DNA of 64,000 nt, taken from Mesonia mobilis DSM 19841. GTDB taxonomy: Bacteria; Bacteroidota; Bacteroidia; Flavobacteriales; Flavobacteriaceae. Below the pieces are notes generated by a model. It ran no database searches and was not told the origin of the DNA. It saw only the letters and a list, made by a program, of their open reading frames with translations. The translations under genes and the position numbers were made by a program. Where the stretch lies: positions 245,705-309,704 of the forward strand of contig NZ_KE384013.1 in NCBI RefSeq assembly GCF_000423405.1. Direction: 5' to 3'. Shown here piece by piece: positions 14,066-36,833 of the stretch. How positions within the stretch are numbered: the stretch's first letter is position 1; each line of letters opens with the position of its first letter.

Positions 14066-15328
14066 TTACACCAAAATATTCATCAAACTTTCCTTAGGAT
14101 TAATGTAATCCCCAAAGAATTGTAAATCTTTCATTCGGCTTAATAGCGGTTCAAAATCTTTTTTAGCCTTTAATTCGATGCCCACGACCGCATAACCTTT
14201 TTCGCGAGAATTTTTTTTGATGTATTCAAAATGGGTAATATCATCCGTTGCGCCTAACACTTCTACCACAAATTGTTTTAAAGCCCCGGCACGTTGCGGA
14301 AATCGAACCAAAAAATAATGTTTAAGTCCGTTATACAACAAGGCTCGTTCTTTAATTTCTTCCATGCGGGTAATATCGTTGTTGCCGCCGCTAACCACGC
14401 AAACCACATGTTTCCCTTTTATTTCTTCAGAAAACTGTTCGAGTGCGGCTAAGGTTAAGGCTCCGGCAGGTTCTACCACGATCGCATCTTTGTTGTAGAG
14501 GTTCAGGATGGTTTCACAAATTTTACCTTCGTCTACGGTAAGCACTTTTTCTAAATTTTGCTTACAGATCTGAAAAGTAAGGTCGCCCACTTTTTTTACG
14601 GCCGCTCCATCTACAAATTTATCGATGAGGTGTAGCTCTGTATTTTCATTTTTATCGATCGAGATCGACATCGAGGCAGCACCTTTCGGTTCTACCCCAA
14701 TAATTTTGGTGTGTGGTGAAAGGGCTTTAAACACACTGCTTACGCCAGAAGCGACGCCCCCACCGCCAATCGGTACAAAAACATAATCGATCGAGTCTTT
14801 AGCAGCGGCTAAAATCTCTAAGGCAATTGTGCCTTGCCCTTCCATAATTTTAGGATCATCAAACGGATGGATCACCGTACTTTGGTGTAGCTCGCTATAC
14901 CGCATGGCTTCTACCTTGGCATCATCAAAGGTATCGCCTACTAAAATCACTTCTACGCGATCTTCCCCAAACATGCGAACCTGCTGTACTTTTTGAAGTG
15001 GAGTAGGCGTAGGCATAAAAATTTTAGCATCGATATTTAACTTTTTACAAGAATACGCCACGCCTTGCGCGTGATTGCCCGCGCTGGCACAAACCACACC
15101 TTTTGCTCTTTCTTCCGCCGTTAACGAAACAATTTTATGATATGCGCCTCTAATTTTATACGAGCGCACCCGTTGCTGGTCTTCTCTTTTTAAAAAGATT
15201 TGCGCCTCGAAATCCTTAGAATAACTTCGGTTCTTCTCTAGCGGCGTGTTTTTAGCGACGCCTTCTAAATTCTTTTGCGCTTTTTTGATTTCTGCTAAAG
15301 AAAGTTGCGGTAAAGTTTGCGTTTTCAT
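14066..15328 (-). CDS. ilvA: Threonine ammonia-lyase (threonine dehydratase)
   Basis: A 420-residue PLP enzyme converting threonine to 2-oxobutanoate, the first step to isoleucine. The PLP lysine lies in RVRSYKIRGAYHKI (about residues 53-66), and the phosphate loop is the glycine-rich GGGGVASGVS. The C-terminal ~80 residues form one ACT-like regulatory unit (FLVRFPQRAGALKQF), matching the shorter biosynthetic form with a single regulatory domain that senses isoleucine and valine. It is the last gene of the ilvDBNCA order and is separated from ilvC by a 250-bp gap full of repeats, so partial uncoupling from the attenuated promoter is possible. Confidence 0.96.
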   Translation of the reverse strand: MKTQTLPQLSLAEIKKAQKNLEGVAKNTPLEKNRSYSKDFEAQIFLKREDQQRVRSYKIRGAYHKIVSLTAEERAKGVVCASAGNHAQGVAYSCKKLNIDAKIFMPTPTPLQKVQQVRMFGEDRVEVILVGDTFDDAKVEAMRYSELHQSTVIHPFDDPKIMEGQGTIALEILAAAKDSIDYVFVPIGGGGVASGVSSVFKALSPHTKIIGVEPKGAASMSISIDKNENTELHLIDKFVDGAAVKKVGDLTFQICKQNLEKVLTVDEGKICETILNLYNKDAIVVEPAGALTLAALEQFSEEIKGKHVVCVVSGGNNDITRMEEIKERALLYNGLKHYFLVRFPQRAGALKQFVVEVLGATDDITHFEYIKKNSREKGYAVVGIELKAKKDFEPLLSRMKDLQFFGDYINPKESLMNILV

Positions 15329-15578: not shown

Positions 15579-16625
15579 TTAGTTGTTTTCCGGTCTTAAT
15601 TTTCTTACTTGCGCACCGGTTTGCCATAATTCAGATTCGCGTAATTCTTTTAACTCTTCTTCCAGTTTTACACGGTAATCTTCTTTTTCATTGGCTTTAA
15701 TCGTTACGCGAGCTTCTTCTCCGGTTTTTACACTATCGTAAAGATCGTCAAACACCGGGAGGGTCGCTTCTCTAAATTTATGGCGCCAGTCTAAAGCTCC
15801 GCGTTGCGCGGTGGTCGAGCAATTGGCATACATCCAATCCATTCCGTTTTCGGCGACTAAAGGCATTAAACTTTGGGTAAGTTCTTCCACCGTTTCATTA
15901 AAGGCTTCTGAAGGTGAATGTCCGTTTTTACGTAAAACTTCATATTGCGCTTCAAAAACTCCGGCTAAAGCTCCCATTAAGATTCCGCGTTCTCCGGTAA
16001 GATCGGAGTAGACTTCTTTCTGAAAATCGGTTTCAAATAAATACCCCGAACCTACGCCAATGCCTAACGCAACGACACGGTCATAGGCTTTTCCCGTAGC
16101 ATCTTGAAAAATAGCATAACTCGAATTCAATCCTTTTCCTTCTACAAAAAGTCGGCGTAAAGACGTTCCCGAACCTTTTGGGGCGACTAAAATCACATCG
16201 ACATCTTTGGGCGGCACAATGCCGGTTTGGTCTTTATAGGTAATTCCGAAGCCGTGCGAAAAATAAAGCGCATCGCCGGGATTTAATTGATTTTTTACGG
16301 TTTCCCACTGAGCGATTTGTCCGGCATCAGAAAGTAAGTATTGCACAATCGTTCCGCGTTTGGCAGCTTCTTCTACTTCAAAAAGCGTTTCACCGGGAAC
16401 CCAGCCATCGGCAACAGCCTTGTCCCAAGTTTTAGAGTTTTTACGTTGGCCTACGATCACGTTAAAGCCGTTGTCTTTTAGGTTAAGCGCTTGCCCTGGA
16501 CCTTGAACTCCGTACCCGATAACCGCGATGGTTTCTTCTTTTAAAGTTGCTACTGCTTTAGCTAAAGGGAACTCCTCTCGAGTGACTACATTTTCTTCTA
16601 CGCCGCCAAAATTTAATTTTGCCAT
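15579..16625 (-). CDS. ilvC: Ketol-acid reductoisomerase
   Basis: A 348-residue IlvC, which isomerises and reduces acetolactate or acetohydroxybutyrate with NADPH and Mg2+. The Rossmann motif is IAVIGYGVQGPGQALNLKDNG (G-Y-G-V-Q-G), with the cofactor loop QRKNSKT. The C-terminal knotted domain has the metal-site stretch SDLTGERGIL and E-rich helices. It lies downstream of ilvN but is separated from it by a 245-bp spacer made largely of palindromic repeats; ilvA follows after another repeat-filled gap. Both gaps are unusual for an operon, yet the order ilvDBNCA and shared strand argue for joint control. Confidence 0.96.
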   Translation of the reverse strand: MAKLNFGGVEENVVTREEFPLAKAVATLKEETIAVIGYGVQGPGQALNLKDNGFNVIVGQRKNSKTWDKAVADGWVPGETLFEVEEAAKRGTIVQYLLSDAGQIAQWETVKNQLNPGDALYFSHGFGITYKDQTGIVPPKDVDVILVAPKGSGTSLRRLFVEGKGLNSSYAIFQDATGKAYDRVVALGIGVGSGYLFETDFQKEVYSDLTGERGILMGALAGVFEAQYEVLRKNGHSPSEAFNETVEELTQSLMPLVAENGMDWMYANCSTTAQRGALDWRHKFREATLPVFDDLYDSVKTGEEARVTIKANEKEDYRVKLEEELKELRESELWQTGAQVRKLRPENN

Positions 16626-16870: not shown

Positions 16871-17410
16871 TTAGTATCTAAAGGTGGAAGCCTTTTCGAC
16901 TTCTGCCATGTATTCTTTAAATTCTTTCATCTGTTTGGGGATCGCTACGCGCCCAGATCGTACAAAGCCTAACAAGCCGTAGGGTTCTAACTTGTTATAA
17001 AGCGCCTGTGTATCGGTTTTATGACCTGTCTTTTCGATGATCGTAAATTCAGCTTCGACCGTTAAAATGCGAGCATTACTACTTCTAATGATCTCTTCCA
17101 CATCTTCTCCGGAAGCTAACGCTGAAGTAGGCACTTTATAAAGTGCGATTTCCTGATGGACCATCTCGTCGTTGCGGTGGTAAAAAGCTTTCACCACATC
17201 GACCTGTTTTTCGATTTGCTGAATTACTTTAACGACCAAGCTTTCTTCTTCTTCCACTACAATGAAGTAGCGGTGAACGCCTTCAACCTCACTAGCCGAA
17301 GCGGTGATGCTTTCAATATTAATATGTCTTCGGGTGAAGATGATGCTTACCCGATTTAGTAAGCCAATTTTATCTTCGGTAAATACCGATATGGTGAATT
17401 CTTCTTTCAT
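16871..17410 (-). CDS. ilvN: Acetolactate synthase, small (regulatory) subunit
   Basis: A 179-residue regulatory subunit. The N-terminal ACT domain (residues about 4-75) begins FTISVFTEDKIGLLNRVSIIFTRR, the usual valine-binding fold with NxESIT. A second domain typical of IlvH-type subunits follows to about residue 160. It activates IlvB and gives valine feedback inhibition. The length is slightly above the ~160 residues of E. coli IlvH. It lies 7 bp from ilvB on the same strand, consistent with co-production. Downstream is the repeat-rich spacer before ilvC. Confidence 0.94.
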   Translation of the reverse strand: MKEEFTISVFTEDKIGLLNRVSIIFTRRHINIESITASASEVEGVHRYFIVVEEEESLVVKVIQQIEKQVDVVKAFYHRNDEMVHQEIALYKVPTSALASGEDVEEIIRSSNARILTVEAEFTIIEKTGHKTDTQALYNKLEPYGLLGFVRSGRVAIPKQMKEFKEYMAEVEKASTFRY

Positions 17411-17417
17411 CTTTTTT

Positions 17418-19127
17418 TTATTTTAATCGCACTTCAGAAACACAGCATCCGGTAGGAATCATGGGGAATACATTGTTTTCTCTCCCTACCATCACTTCTA
17501 ATAAATAGCTGCCTTTGTGATTTAAAAATCCGTTGAGCGCTTCTTCTAAGTGTTCTCGTTGTTCTACACGTTCGGTTTCGATATGATAACCTTTGGCGAT
17601 GGTTTGAAAATCTGGGTTCACCATTTCGGTGAACGAATAGCGACGCTCAAAAAACAGTTCTTGCCATTGGCGAACCATGCCTAGAAATTCATTATTCAAT
17701 ACCAAGATTTTCACATCGATCTGCGATTGGAAAATGGTGCCTAACTCTTGGATCGTCATTTGAAAACCGCCGTCGCCCACTACACAGATCACTTCACGAT
17801 CGGGAGCTCCTAATTTGGCACCGATCGCTGCCGGAAGGCCAAAGCCCATCGTGCCTAAACCACCGGAAGTCACATGACTTCGCCATTGGTCGTGCTCGTA
17901 GTACCGTTGTGCTGCCATTTGATGCTGCCCCACATCGGTCACGATCACTGCTTTTCCTAGGGTTTTATCCGAGATTTTTTTGATCACTTCACCCATCGTC
18001 ATTTCTTTTTCTAACGAAGGAGAAAGTTCTTCTTCTACGACTTCTAAAAACTCTTTTTGCTTGCAGTTGTAGAATTCTTGCTTCCAGTCGTCGTGCTTTT
18101 TTTCTTCTAAAAGCTCGGTAAGCATTTGCAGCGATTGTTTACAATTGCCAAGAACCGGCACCTCGGCATATACGTTTTTATTGATTTCTGCCGGATCAAT
18201 TTCGAGATGAATGACTTTGGCTTGTTTGGCATAGCGACTTAAATCTCCGGTCACCCGATCGTCAAAACGCATGCCGACAGCTATTAACACATCACATTCG
18301 TTGGTGAGTAAATTAGGGCCGTAATTACCGTGCATCCCTAACATGCCCATATTGAGTGGGTGATGTGAAGAAAGTGCAGAAATTCCTAAAATGGTCCACG
18401 CCGAAGGAAGGTCTCCTTTTTCAATAAATTTTCTAAATTCTTCCTGCGCTTCTGCCAACACCACTCCTTGGCCAAAAAGCACATAAGGTTTTTTCGCTTG
18501 ATTGATTAAGGCGGCCGCTTTTTTAATTTGTGCTTCGTTTACCGGATTATCGGGAACATAGCTGCGAACACTTTGGCAAGCTTCATATTCAAATTCAAAA
18601 CTTTCAAACTGTGCATCTTTGGTAATATCGATCAATACCGGTCCCGGTCTTCCGGTTTTTGCCACATAAAAAGCTTTGGCTAAGGCCTGCGGAATATCTT
18701 TCGCTTGGGTCACTTGGATGTTCCATTTGGTCACCGGCGTCGAAATGCCGACCACATCGGTTTCCTGAAAAGCATCGGTACCCAAAAGATTGCTGCCTAC
18801 TTGCCCGGTGATGCAAACTAAGGGCGTTGAATCGATCTGCGCATCGGCCAAACCGGTAATAAGATTGGTTGCTCCCGGCCCCGATGTAGCGATGCAAACA
18901 CCAACTTTCCCCGAGACGCGTGCGTAACCTTGTGCGGCGTGAATAGCACCTTGTTCGTGTCGTGTTAAAATGTGTGCTAACCGATCGCGATAATCGTACA
19001 TCGAATCGTACACCGGCATAATGGCTCCGCCGGGATAGCCAAACAAATATTCCGTTTCTTCTAGCAAAAGACATTTCACCACGGCTTCCGCTCCTGTGAT
19101 GACTGTTGTTTTAGTTGATACTTCCAT
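17418..19127 (-). CDS. ilvB: Acetolactate synthase, large (catalytic) subunit
   Basis: A 569-residue TPP- and FAD-dependent enzyme forming acetolactate or acetohydroxybutyrate. The catalytic glutamate lies in [16 protein letters not shown] (about residue 58). The TPP/Mg motif runs from GDGGFQMT to LNNEFLGM, and the FAD region contains [12 protein letters not shown]. Its start lies 17 bases inside the end of ilvD, indicating tight translational coupling, and ilvN follows after 7 bp. The ATG choice ([17 protein letters not shown]) fits the family, though an internal start past the overlap cannot be excluded. Confidence 0.96.
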
Positions 19128-20802
19128 GAGCTTTATCGGTTACGCATCCTAAGGATGCAGAGGTTACAGATTGTGCATATTTAAAGAGCGCTCCCCGGGA
19201 TACTTTTAGTGGTGGCGCTTTCCATTCTTTTTGGCGTTCTTGTAATTCTTCTTCAGACAGGTGAACGTCGATCGTATTTTTTTCAGCATCGATGGTAATT
19301 TGATCACCATCTTTCAGTAAACCAATTGTGCCGCCAACTTGTGCTTCGGGAGTAATGTGCCCCACCACAAAACCGTGCGTACCACCGGAAAATCTTCCAT
19401 CGGTAATTAAAGCCACTTTCTTCCCTAAACCTCTTCCCATAATGGCCGAAGTAGGTTTGAGCATTTCCGGCATTCCGGGTCCGCCTTTAGGACCTTCATA
19501 ACGGATCACCACCACATCGCCTTCTTTTACTTCTCCGTTAGCAATCCCATCGTTGGCTTCATATTCGCCATTGTAGATTTTAGCGGTTCCCGAAAAGAGT
19601 AAACCTTCTTTTCCGGTGATTTTTGCTACGGCACCTTCCGGAGCTAAGTTTCCTTTTAGAATTCGTAAATGACCGGTAGGTTTTAAAGGTTGTTCTACGG
19701 AATGAAGAATCTCTTGTTCCGAAGAAAGTGAAGGAACCTCTGCTAAATTTTCGGCTAAGGTTTTCCCAGTTACGGTAAGGCAATCGCCATGTAAATAGCC
19801 TTTTTCTAATAAATATTTCATCACGGCGGGTGTTCCGCCAATTTGATGCAGGTCTTCCATCAAGTATTTACCGCTCGGTTTAAGATCGGCTAAATAGGGA
19901 ACTTGATCGCTAATACGCTGAAAATCGTCTATCTTAAAATCGACGCCTGCGGCATCGGCGATCGCTAAAAAGTGGAGCACCGCATTGGTCGAACCGCCTA
20001 AGGCAATGACGACGGTAATCGCGTTTTCAAATGATTTTTTTGAAACGATATCGGAAGGTTTTAAATCTTTTTTCAGTAACTCCATCACGGCTTCTCCGGC
20101 TTTGGTACATTCGGCTACTTTTGCATTTCCCACCGCAGGATTAGAAGCATTGTAGGGCAATGAAAAGCCCAAGGCTTCAATCGCGGAAGCCATGGTGTTG
20201 GCTGTGTACATCCCACCGCAAGCGCCGGGACCGGGACAAGCATGATGAATTACTTTTTTAAATTCGCACTCCTTCATTTTTCCGGCAGATTTTTCTCCCC
20301 AAGCTTCAAAGGCAGAAACAATATCTAGCTTTTTATCGCCTAATTTTCCGGAAGCAATCGTGCCACCGTATACCATCACGGAAGGTCTGTTTAACCGAAA
20401 CATGGCCATTAACGCACCTGGCATGTTCTTATCGCAACCTACGACGGTGACGAGCGCATCGTAGCTCATGCCTTGGATCACGGTTTCCATAGAATCGGCG
20501 ATAATATCGCGGGAAGGAAGTGAAAAGCGCATTCCCGGAGTTCCCATCGATATCCCGTCACTTACGCCAATGGTATTGAATACGAGACCCACACCATCAT
20601 TACTGTTGATCCCGGTTTTTACATGTTGCGCGAGGTCGTTGAGGTGCATATTGCACGGGTTGCCTTCAAAGCCTGTACTGCCAATGCCGATGAAGGGTTT
20701 GTCTAAATCTTCATCGGTTAATCCTAAAGCGTGTAGCATGGCTTGCGAAGCAGGCTGGGAGGGATCTTGGGTGACGCGCTGACTAAATTTGTTGAGTTTC
20801 AT
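19111..20802 (-). CDS. ilvD: Dihydroxy-acid dehydratase
   Basis: A 563-residue iron-sulfur dehydratase, making the 2-oxo acids of valine and isoleucine synthesis. Cluster-ligand cysteines are visible in [19 protein letters not shown] and [16 protein letters not shown]. The conserved [14 protein letters not shown] region is near the C-terminus. It is the first structural gene of the ilv block. Its start codon lies only 18 bp beyond a strong intrinsic terminator, which itself follows two leader peptides rich in branched-chain codons. Expression of the whole operon should therefore be controlled by attenuation. The 3' end overlaps ilvB by 17 bases. Confidence 0.97.
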
Positions 20803-20820
20803 GGTTTTGTTCTTTAACTA

Positions 20821-20851
20821 AAAAGCCCTTCTCGGTAGGAGAAGGGCTTTT
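20821..20851 (-). terminator. Attenuator 2 terminator, in front of ilvD
   Basis: On the minus strand AAAAGCCCTTCTC, loop CTACC, GAGAAGGGCTTTT, then TAGTT: a perfect 13-bp stem, 5-nt loop and a five-T run. Its 5' arm segment CCTTCTC can instead pair with GAGAAGG (20883-20877), which starts inside the stop codon of leader peptide 2. Confidence 0.92.
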
Positions 20852-20881
20852 ATTTATACTTTCAATGATAGCAATACCTTC

Positions 20882-20950
20882 TCAGCTCATTATTGGAATA
20901 ATAATGACTAAAAGAATAATGCTAATTACGATGTTATTGTTTGTTTTCAT
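20882..20950 (-). CDS. ilv operon leader peptide 2
   Basis: A 22-codon open frame, ATG to TGA. After MKTNNN it contains IVISIILLVIII, then PIMS. Twelve of 22 residues are Ile, Val or Leu, an extreme bias expected only for a sensing peptide. It lies between terminator 1 and terminator 2. The TGA stop overlaps the strand GAGAAGG, which can disrupt terminator 2. If the ribosome stalls on the Ile/Val/Leu codons this strand is free and the terminator is blocked. If the ribosome reaches the stop codon it hides the strand and the terminator forms. The peptide itself probably has no other function. Confidence 0.88.
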   Translation of the reverse strand: MKTNNNIVISIILLVIIIPIMS

Positions 20951-20964
20951 CTCGGTAAATAAAA

Positions 20965-20988
20965 AAACCATCCGAAAAAGGATGGCTT
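20965..20988 (-). terminator. Attenuator 1 terminator
   Basis: On the minus strand AAGCCATCC, loop TTTTTC, GGATGGTTT, then further T to a run of seven: a 9-bp stem counting one G-U pair. It lies between the two leader peptides. Its 5' arm CCATCC can instead pair with GGATGG (21006-21001). Confidence 0.88.
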
Positions 20989-21011
20989 CAATTTTGGGTA
21001 CCATCCATCTG

Positions 21012-21074
21012 TTAATTTCTAATAATAGAAATGACTAAGCAGTTGATGGATCTATTTTTATTTAATTTCTTCAT
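21012..21074 (-). CDS. ilv operon leader peptide 1
   Basis: A 20-codon open frame, ATG to TAA, starting MKKLNKN and containing the run CLVISII before RN. An in-frame ATG at 21104 would add ten residues; I prefer the shorter frame because it leaves room for a 5' untranslated region. Codons 8-12 contain ATCCATC, which can pair with GATGGAT just after the stop codon (21009-21003). That second segment can also pair with the 5' arm of terminator 1. This is the classical four-segment attenuator layout. The control codons Leu-Val-Ile-Ser-Ile-Ile lie just downstream of the first segment, as expected for a stalling switch. Confidence 0.8.
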   Translation of the reverse strand: MKKLNKNRSINCLVISIIRN

Positions 21075-21104
21075 AATTGTTTGATGAAAGTATATAACTC
21101 TCAT

Positions 21105-21441
21105 TGATTGACCAAAATAAAATTCAATTAAAATGTTAAAATCATTTATTTTTGTAGATATTTTATTTTTAGGTATCTCAAATTGAGAATCTTTTAATTT
21201 AAAATTTATGAACTTCTAATATTTACTTCTACCATTTCAAGACGAATGAATTTTTAAATAAATGATAAGGTTCATTTTACGATTCTAAGTGTTACTTCTT
21301 AAGTAGTTATTTGTATGATTATATAACACGTCGTTATATAATTACCGTTTGTTGATAAAAATTTACCGTTGGTCGTTTTTGAGGCTGCTCAAAGGCTTAT
21401 CTAAATACTTTTATCGCTCTAAACCACTTAACAACAACGGT
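21105..21441. other. AT-rich divergent intergenic region, no further gene seen
   Basis: This stretch separates the ilv leader from the response regulator gene. It is very AT-rich, carries the presumed promoters for both directions, and includes a short GC-containing island (ACACGTCGT near 21327). A TTG-started extension of the downstream gene into this region (from 21349) is not supported. I see no RNA gene or repeat. Confidence 0.6.
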
Positions 21442-21819
21442 ATGAAAAAACAAATACTCATCGTAGACGATAAGCAAAGTTTAAGTGCTTTGGTCGCTCA
21501 ATTTCTACATCAAAATTTTGAAGTGATCACGAAAAAGAACGGGATGGAAGCTATGTTGTGGTTGCAAGATTCTCATCTTCCCGATTTAATTATTACCGAC
21601 CTAGAAATGCCGAAAATGGACGGGCTAGAGTTGATCAAACGTATAAAAGAAAGCGGTTTTTTCGCCGAGATCCCCGTCATGGTACTCAGCTGTAAATACA
21701 CCAGCAAAGACCGTATCGAATGTTTAAAAGCCGGCGCTACCGATTATATGGTGAAACCTTTTAATCCGGAAGAATTACTTATTCGCTTAGAGAATATTTT
21801 ACAGAAGTCTATTGCCTAA
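21442..21819 (+). CDS. Single-domain response regulator (CheY-like)
   Basis: A 125-residue stand-alone receiver domain. The start is the ATG giving MKKQILIVDDKQS. The acidic pocket DD is at residues 9-10, the phospho-acceptor Asp53 lies in IITDLEMPKMDG, and Thr/Ser and Lys positions follow (VMVLSCK, DYMVKPF). It has no output domain, so it must act through a partner protein. No kinase is encoded next to it. The next gene, 14 bp on, encodes a fragment of a degenerate receiver domain, hinting that the partner gene has been lost or truncated. Confidence 0.88.
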   Translation: MKKQILIVDDKQSLSALVAQFLHQNFEVITKKNGMEAMLWLQDSHLPDLIITDLEMPKMDGLELIKRIKESGFFAEIPVMVLSCKYTSKDRIECLKAGATDYMVKPFNPEELLIRLENILQKSIA

Positions 21820-26233: not shown

Positions 26234-26337
26234 TTGGGCGTTTCCCTTCGGGTCAGGCTATTCGCTATATCTTTTTTGTTGTCATGCTGAGCTTGTCGAA
26301 GCACAACAAAAAAGGATGCCGCTTCTATCCTTAACGC
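26234..26337 (+). repeat. Flavobacterial intergenic repeat, copy 4
   Basis: Left end TTGGGCGTTTCCC, then CGGGTCAGGCTATTCGCTATATC. The centre is the perfect hairpin CTTTTTTGTTG/CAACAAAAAAG around a loop carrying GTCATGCTGAGCTTGTCGAA. The right end is GGATGCCGCTTCTATCCTTAACGC. It lies between the divergent repressor and antiporter genes, 14 bp upstream of the repressor start, so it forms that gene's 5' region or sits upstream of its promoter. Confidence 0.8.
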
Positions 26338-26475
26338 TTTTCAAACTTATAACTAAAAAATAAGTTATGCAACTATTTTTGTAGTTAACCAACTAAAGGT
26401 GTAGTTTTTGTTTGTTTTTCAATATTTTACTAATCCATAATAAAACGATTATCTTCGCAAGAAAAATAGCTTACT

Positions 26476-35938: not shown

Positions 35939-36739
35939 ATGCAAGTTCAAGATCAATTAGGGCGAAATTTTCAGTTGAAGGAAACTCCGAAGCGAATTAT
36001 CTCTTTAGTGCCAAGCCAAACCGAATTGTTGGTCGATTTAGGTCTGCGAGAACAATTGGTAGGCATTACCAAGTTTTGTGTGCATCCGGTAGAATTACGA
36101 AAAGAAGTTGAAATTGTTGGCGGAACCAAAGAGGTGAAACTTGAAAAGATCGCCCAACTTCAGCCGGATCTTATTCTTTGTAATAAAGAAGAAAATACGT
36201 TTGATATGGTGACTCAACTAGAACCAATAGCCCCGGTTCACGTATCTAATATTTCTACTATTGAAGAAAGTTTAGTCTTGATCAAACAATACGGTGAAAT
36301 TTTTTCTGTGGAAGAAAAAGCAAAAACGCTCATTGCTAAGATTCAGGCGGGATTAAAAGATTTTCAGGAATTCGTAAGAGATAAAAAGCCACTAAAAGTA
36401 GCTTATTTTATTTGGCGAAAACCTTGGATGGTGGCCGGTGGTGATACGTTTATCGATCATTTGCTGCAGCAAAATCATTTTGAAAATATATTTGCTGAAA
36501 TACCTCGTTACCCTGAAGTTGACTTGCATCGTTTAGCTGAAGCAGATTTGGTGCTACTTTCTTCAGAACCTTTTCCGTTTCAAGAGAAACATATTGAAGA
36601 GCTTTCTAAATTTATAGAGCCGGAAAAAATAAAACTGATCGATGGAGAGTTTTTTAGTTGGTACGGCTCGCGATTAGCAAAGGCTTTTAGTTATTTTAAA
36701 AAGTGGCATCGGGCTGAGTTGCCTTTGCGAAAGGGATAG
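35939..36739 (+). CDS. BtuF-like helical-backbone metal-receptor protein without signal peptide
   Basis: A 266-residue protein of the periplasmic-binding superfamily for vitamin B12 or iron chelates. Typical segments are PKRIISLVPSQTELLVDLGL (residues 18-37), VGGTKEVKLEKIAQLQPDLIL, and VAYFIWRKPWMVAGGDTFIDHLL. There is no signal peptide, lipobox or hydrophobic N-terminus, so it appears cytosolic, unusual for a family normally exported. No B12 transport genes are adjacent, but a B12-dependent mutase lies 4.4 kb downstream. The stop codon lies inside an intergenic repeat. Cobalamin binding is inferred from family resemblance. Confidence 0.8.
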   Translation: MQVQDQLGRNFQLKETPKRIISLVPSQTELLVDLGLREQLVGITKFCVHPVELRKEVEIVGGTKEVKLEKIAQLQPDLILCNKEENTFDMVTQLEPIAPVHVSNISTIEESLVLIKQYGEIFSVEEKAKTLIAKIQAGLKDFQEFVRDKKPLKVAYFIWRKPWMVAGGDTFIDHLLQQNHFENIFAEIPRYPEVDLHRLAEADLVLLSSEPFPFQEKHIEELSKFIEPEKIKLIDGEFFSWYGSRLAKAFSYFKKWHRAELPLRKG

Positions 36740-36833
36740 CAGCGGCATCCTTTTTATATTTTTGATGAAAAATTTAAAAAGATATAGCGTATAGCCCGGT
36801 TTTGTAGCTTTTCGCTACAAAATTTGCCCTGCT
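36733..36833 (-). repeat. Flavobacterial intergenic repeat, copy 5
   Basis: Read on the minus strand: GCAGGGCAAATTTTGTAGCG, then GAAAAGCTACAAAACCGGGC, TATACGCTATATC, an AT-rich centre, and AAAAAGGATGCCGCTGCTATCCC. The right end is shared with copy 4 (AAAGGATGCCGCTTCTATCC). The left end has a different hairpin, TTTTGTAGC/GCTACAAAA. It fills the gap between two convergent genes and contains both stop codons. Confidence 0.8.

Follow-up and report, generated by a model that had tools for sequence, protein, structure and literature searches.

Two complete leader-peptide modules, each with a short open reading frame (ORF), an antiterminator strand and a terminator hairpin, were found one behind the other immediately upstream of ilvD in Mesonia mobilis DSM 19841. 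They very probably act as serial transcription attenuators, each complete and ribosome-controlled, within a single leader RNA. Their parts, pairing, conservation, geometry and recurrence among relatives were established by sequence analysis and computation. The window denotes here the whole 64,000-nt stretch of DNA that was analysed. The classical ribosome-mediated attenuators, those of the trp, his, ilv, leu and thr leaders of enteric bacteria, consist of a single leader and terminator.

The modules precede a minus-strand cluster with the order ilvD-ilvB-ilvN-ilvC-ilvA. With ilvD at its head as the first gene past the attenuators, this cluster comprises ilvD (dihydroxy-acid dehydratase, 19111-20802; TIGR00110, 767.9 bits), ilvB (acetolactate synthase large subunit, 17418-19127; TIGR00118, 722.7 bits), ilvN (acetolactate synthase small subunit, 16871-17410; TIGR00119, 101.6 bits), ilvC (ketol-acid reductoisomerase, 15579-16625; TIGR00465, 322 bits) and ilvA (threonine ammonia-lyase, 14066-15328; TIGR02079, 609 bits), all scoring above the cut-off. 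leuA is present farther along the same window, and inspection of the 450 nt upstream of it revealed no module of leader and terminator. Read along the minus strand from 21150 to 20802, the ilvD upstream segment contains a promoter-like region, leader 1, hairpin 1 with its U-tract, leader 2, hairpin 2 with its U-tract, and then ilvD. The promoter-like region, 5' of the leaders, holds a conserved box TTTAACATTTTAA (21128-21140), a putative -33 element TTTG (21113-21116) and a putative -7 element TATAcTTT (21087-21094). Among six genus genomes with either one or two modules, the box and TTTG are invariant and the -7 element reads TATAnTTT. By comparison with the consensus TTG / TAnnTTTG, we take TTTG plus TATAnTTT to be a putative Bacteroidota promoter.

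Leader peptide 1 of the distal module, MKKLNKNRSINCLVISIIRN, is encoded at 21012-21074, and leader peptide 2 of the proximal module, MKTNNNIVISIILLVIIIPIMS, at 20882-20950 (both on the minus strand). In the ORF listing both sit inside longer frames, which start at 21104 and 21004 respectively, so that leader 2 is the 3' part of its frame; the alternative start at 21104 lies upstream of the putative -7 element. Ahead of ilvDBNCA, translation is predicted to run over clustered branched-chain codons, namely LVISII in leader 1 and IILLVIII in leader 2. Ile, Leu and Val make up 12 of 21 residues in leader 2 (binomial p 0.0008) and 7 of 19 in leader 1 (p 0.13). As the overall enrichment in leader 1 is not significant, the case for this peptide rests on the LVISII cluster, its conservation in four genomes and the pairing described below. 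Each module carries a predicted intrinsic terminator between its leader and ilvD, as judged by sequence pattern and folding: hairpin 1 with its U-tract at 20964-20989 and hairpin 2 with its U-tract at 20821-20851, the latter listed by the terminator search under the plus strand because it is symmetrical, with A/T runs on both sides. The two ORF-hairpin units that an initial annotation had placed ahead of ilvD were thus confirmed by sequence, ORFs, terminators and folding.

These features stand out against shuffled sequence. Positions 20700-21600 contained four terminator-like sites versus 0.3 (sd 0.5) in shuffled sequence, the other two being an opposite-strand sub-stem of hairpin 1 and an upstream site at 21476-21455. 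The 308-nt leader RNA had a folding z-score of -7.7 relative to shuffles, and a module detector that found two modules in the real region found none in 2988, one in 12 and two in 0 of 3000 dinucleotide shuffles. An Rfam scan of the region for T-box elements, riboswitches and amino-acid leaders gave no match at the curated score (the best sub-threshold matches were Thr_leader, 32 of 55 bits, and Phe_leader, 29.4 of 55), and membership of a described riboswitch, T-box or leader family was rejected on this basis. A promoter of its own for leader 2 is likewise disfavoured, since the leader 2 ATG lies 13 nt past terminator 1, leaving no room for such a promoter unless it overlaps module 1.

Both modules were predicted to form either an antiterminator (2:3) or a terminator (3:4), the two pairings excluding each other. 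In module 1, region 2 is GGATGGT (21000-21006, minus strand), which lies five bases past the stop codon. The 5' arm of terminator 1 contains its complement GCCATCC, with which it pairs at 20986-20980. In module 2, region 2 is GAGAAGG (20877-20883, minus strand), which overlaps the TGA stop codon and whose complement CCTTCTC lies within the 5' arm of terminator 2. We folded the modules separately in a model where the ribosome footprint extends 15 bases, counted from the P-site codon's first base. When codons 13-18 of leader 1 or codons 11-18 of leader 2 occupied the A site, regions 2 and 3 were predicted to pair before region 4 is made, with fold energies of -9.6 kcal/mol or lower and 2:3 probabilities of 0.67-0.70; a stall at codon 20, the final Ile codon in leader 2, gave an intermediate value of -5.5. 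With the ribosome on the stop codon, the modelled energy before region 4 was only -1.2 in module 1 and 0.0 in module 2, and the terminator was then predicted to form (-13.5 and -20.1, respectively). The modules differed in the model when no ribosome was present. Leader 2 RNA folded on itself and hid region 2 (0.01), so that untranslated module 2 RNA should terminate. In module 1, the 2:3 pairing was still favoured before region 4 is made (0.68), which means that untranslated RNA may read through gate 1 and that module 1 may be without the safeguard of module 2. In the complete RNA the predicted terminator was more stable than the antiterminator at all ribosome positions tried; antitermination would therefore have to be kinetic, i.e. 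depend on the order of synthesis. Antitermination in known attenuators is held to be won in the same way.

A match to ilvD was found in 6 of the 16 genus genomes examined, including that of the window, which suggests that the others have lost branched-chain amino acid synthesis. Four of the six carry both modules and two carry the proximal module only. The box TTTAACATTTTAA, TTTG and TATAnTTT are common to all six, tandem or single, and in the two single-module species the promoter-like region is followed directly by leader 2. This arrangement suggests that the distal module was inserted between promoter and leader 2 in one subclade. In an ilvD nucleotide tree the four tandem genomes were set apart from the two single-module genomes and the outgroups with an ultrafast bootstrap of 77; a single acquisition of the distal module is therefore the more economical interpretation, moderately supported. 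Beyond the four tandem ilv loci, a search of the genus for the source of the distal module, in which up to 40 candidates were scored per genome, returned nothing but short matches of 29-41 bases.

The initial annotation had proposed aligning relatives for both peptides and for covariation in both hairpins. Both modules are kept in four of the six genomes, and terminator 2 shows three two-sided compensatory changes alongside some broken pairs at its base (outer) and loop ends. The seven 2:3 pairs of module 1 are invariant in all four genomes that have it, and the two remaining genomes lack the distal module. In leader 1, the N-terminal part varies while LVISIIRN and the 2:3 pairs are kept (4/4), and in terminator 1 the outermost pair is broken in L084 and one pair is gapped in L083. 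The tail (L/I)LVIIIPIM(S/N) of leader 2 is present in 6/6 genomes, and the 2:3 pairing of module 2 is kept in all six except for one deleted base in L085. The suggestion that the two modules of the window arose by an old duplication was not upheld: their likeness is not significant, with 83 of 1000 shuffles scoring as high or higher, and the congener comparison points to the addition of a distal module in one subclade rather than to duplication. The two near-identical leaders of an Aquimarina locus (L023) do look, from their sequences, like the product of a recent duplication.

The wider survey covered 195 ilvD upstream regions, consisting of the window's own, five from the genus, 80 named records (the best 80 of at least 595) and 109 family members. 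For the latter, 233 of 299 genomes had ilvD; those listed contributed 29 new loci plus another 80 places, ranked by similarity to the IlvD of the window and hence not a random sample. We read the sampled family as Flavobacteriaceae because four upstream regions were identical to named records (including Meridianimaribacter and Muriicola); with these four identical pairs, 191 of the 195 regions are unique. The detector reported 18 two-module, 57 single and 120 module-free regions within 700 nt upstream. After hand edits by eye, which discarded the first module at both L064 and L111 and the only module at both L025 and L089, the counts within 750 nt upstream (the range also used for the region 2 statistics and the leader 2 spacing) were 16 tandem, 57 single and 122 without a module. 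Shuffled controls gave 15 single and 0 double detections in 1950. The reverse-strand control was not clean, with 13 single and 2 double among 195, and these matches may stem from symmetrical hairpins.

Only 2 of 4672 flank windows contained two or more modules. One of them (L056) was judged spurious, and the other (L049) proved to be a Myroides ilv leader, in which one additional module was spurious. This locus, in the ilv cluster of Myroides sp. 1354 (L049:4559-5070), has tandem ilv leaders ahead of a gene that we take to be ilvE-like; an N-filled assembly gap there repeats the second module, and a third copy is uncertain. The tandems at ilvD occurred in Gaetbulibacter, Lutibacter, Aquimarina, a metagenome-assembled genome labelled Ignavibacteriae, eight other family members and the four window-genus genomes. 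In 10 of the 16, a distal terminator of the CCTTCC kind (one CCTTCT) was combined with a proximal terminator of the CTGTATC kind. These CCTTCC-then-CTGTATC tandems were interspersed with singles of both kinds across the ilvD tree, and could represent an old pair with losses or repeated gains.

The geometry of the tandems was uniform: in 16/16, terminator 1 is followed after 2-20 nt by the first in-frame ATG of leader 2. With this spacing a transcript would have to pass both gates, and a separate promoter would overlap module 1; the spacing and the conserved upstream region together point to one transcript through both modules. No module was detected in 122 of the 195 regions, and 57 of the 73 with a module were not tandem; with so many single or module-free regions, a tandem is evidently not required for ilv control in the family. 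Several further observations were made in these upstream regions. About 170-300 bases separate the last terminator from ilvD in L019, L011, L175, L120 and others, and this stretch contains recurrent motifs in relatives, such as GAACATCAT and a palindrome like CTGATnnTCAGT. A SAM-II riboswitch was seen at L161:217-276 (-) and at L165:232-291 (-), in both cases upstream of the tandem ilv leader but on the other strand.

We also examined the signature expected of a ribosome-controlled switch across relatives. In 85 modules, the median start of region 2 was at -3, the first base of the stop codon, with a search range that opened 15 bases ahead of the stop codon's end. The match between region 2 and its own hairpin scored 10.05, versus a permuted value of 8.04 (sd 0.20) and a maximum of 8.75 in 2000 permutations. 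Thirty modules selected for a hairpin of the CTGTATC kind (type A) were aligned. Here 96.3% of 240 cells show pairing between the element TGATACAG and region 3, compared with 21-43% for slid versions; the slides are the only discriminating control, as region 3 hardly varies and the 2:3 shuffle control is therefore uninformative. The TGA within TGATACAG is the leader stop codon in 22 of these 30 modules. For the same reason, i.e. the near-constancy of region 3, no two-sided 2:3 covariation was seen in type A. Where a cell departs from the commonest pair, pairing survives in 30 of 39 cases across the eight columns, and in columns 47-49 a G-U pair is kept in 25 of 27. Two-sided changes did occur at three pairs of the type-A terminator helix. 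Codon choice was skewed as well: GTC accounts for 96 of 191 Val codons in the leaders versus 299 of 3149 in 80 ilvD genes, and for 13.9% of Val codons in twelve ORFs of the window. Slow codons would aid stalling.

The his loci examined for comparison showed no tandem leaders. Among the best 30 of 49 his places, 29 had one His-rich leader and 0 had two, so that tandems among leader-bearing loci amounted to 16/73 for ilv versus 0/29 for his (Fisher p 0.005, with relatedness ignored). The hisG locus of the same genome (L276) has a single His leader, MRQINLHHHHIHFHAQAR, with a terminator. The aspartokinase gene of this genome (L279) has a Thr/Ile-rich short ORF ending in ISTITTITPFGV; no terminator was detected after this ORF.

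Anatomy, alternative pairing, congeners and other lineages all agree with the initial reading of two leader-peptide attenuators in series before ilvD, from which we infer a single transcript, ribosome stalling, termination, antitermination and a regulatory gain. A ribosome finishing a leader peptide would cover region 2 at the stop codon, leaving regions 3 and 4 to form the terminator. When charged tRNA is short, the ribosome would stall on Leu, Val or Ile codons and leave region 2 free to pair with region 3 ahead of region 4 synthesis; RNA polymerase would then read on. Since terminator 1 abuts the start of leader 2, polymerase would reach ilvD only past both gates. The two leaders share codon kinds, and the likeliest effect of the second gate is consequently tighter repression when branched-chain amino acids are plentiful, together with a steeper response over a wider range during a shortage. 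It is possible, but tentative, that this represents a recurrent Bacteroidota design in which ilv leaders gain an abutting second complete attenuator. Two stalling events on one RNA would then make control multiplicative and switch-like, possibly with coupling of the gates, where antitermination at gate 1 leaves the U-rich start of leader 2 unstructured for ribosome loading.

The initial annotation had raised the possibility that the two gates respond to different amino acids; they could then form a logic gate rather than a multiplier. Val is indeed somewhat commoner in distal leaders (28 versus 20 over 14 pairs), but no significant difference between distal and proximal leaders emerged for Ile (p 0.34), Val (p 0.11) or Leu (p 0.90) in this small sample, made up of the ten CCTTCC-then-CTGTATC (B-then-A) tandems, L023, L026, L049 and one row for the window genus. 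In the window, Leu, Val and Ile codons occur in both effective stretches, and serial gates needing two shortages would presumably block the response to a single one. We regard such two-signal logic as unlikely. Since the leaders of two-gate loci lack a significant Ile/Val/Leu difference, tighter repression with a steeper response is favoured over it, at a confidence of roughly even odds.

It is more doubtful still that the proximal module alone regulates, the distal one being a recent insertion with a partly idle terminator and a decaying or chance leader. Its absence from two of the six ilvD-bearing genomes would fit this, as would the non-significant Ile/Leu/Val richness of leader 1 taken by itself and the short matches of the terminator 1 stretch elsewhere in other genus genomes. 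A decaying leader would not, however, be expected to keep LVISIIRN and all seven 2:3 pairs in four genomes while its N-terminal part varies; a terminator standing idle ahead of the operon, downstream of its promoter, would presumably carry a cost, and the distal leaders of tandems in other lineages are convincing. Hardly credible, finally, is that the ORFs encode working small hydrophobic proteins and that the hairpins merely end small transcripts as ordinary terminators do. Such a reading would suit the partial hydrophobicity of the peptides and the position of each ORF ahead of its own terminator, but it is the codon stretch beside region 2 and region 2 itself that are kept while the N-terminal parts vary. 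Tandem matches are, moreover, rare away from ilv genes, one of the two in the flank windows being an ilv leader, and the hisG leader in the same genome is rich in His instead. Two serial attenuators thus remain the preferred reading.

These modules share with the classical attenuators, of which the trp case is summarised in PMC3641672, the codons for the controlling amino acids in the leader, the alternative 2:3 and 3:4 pairing and an intrinsic terminator before the first gene; they differ in that two complete units stand in series, in Bacteroidota, with region 2 at or just past the stop codon. The initial annotation knew of few or no tandem attenuators, and this needs qualifying, as one close precedent is in print. 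In the account given in PMC3641672 (Lee and Groisman), the Salmonella mgtCBR operon has two serial leader ORFs, mgtM and mgtP, on one leader RNA, each of which governs elongation into the operon. Its stem-loops do not resemble intrinsic terminators, its two signals, ATP and proline, differ and act additively, and it is not an amino-acid biosynthesis operon (PMC3641672); it is the closest precedent found in print. The Bacillus clausii metE tandem riboswitches, according to the same account, likewise comprise two serial sensors with two expected intrinsic-terminator sites, but there the RNA senses metabolites directly and leader peptides are lacking (PMC3641672). Closer by descent is Flavobacterium psychrophilum, of the same family, whose transcriptome gave strong clues to leader-peptide attenuation before amino-acid operons (PMC9723704); the main text of that paper contains no match for ilv and, in the parts dealing with attenuation, names no tandem arrangement. 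A Bacteroides map describes short ORFs in long 5' untranslated regions (PMC7366714), and a Veillonella ilvD motif is given as a weak riboswitch candidate (PMC8632094). Our literature search found no tandem ilv leader, although one may be in print, e.g. in the comparative survey of Lopatovskaya et al. 2010 (cited in PMC4833913). What appears to be new is the doubling of apparently classical attenuators in series, recurrent in one bacterial family, with a mechanism proposed from sequence.

Relatives with one and two units behind apparently the same promoter offer a ready comparison of how repeated gates affect repression, range and steepness. Amino-acid attenuation in Bacteroidota, which transcriptome surveys mention briefly, can now be tested gene by gene. 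Elsewhere in the window, two copies of the structured RNA Flavo-1 (RF01705) were detected, at 26247-26358 on the minus strand and at 36716-36805 on the plus strand.
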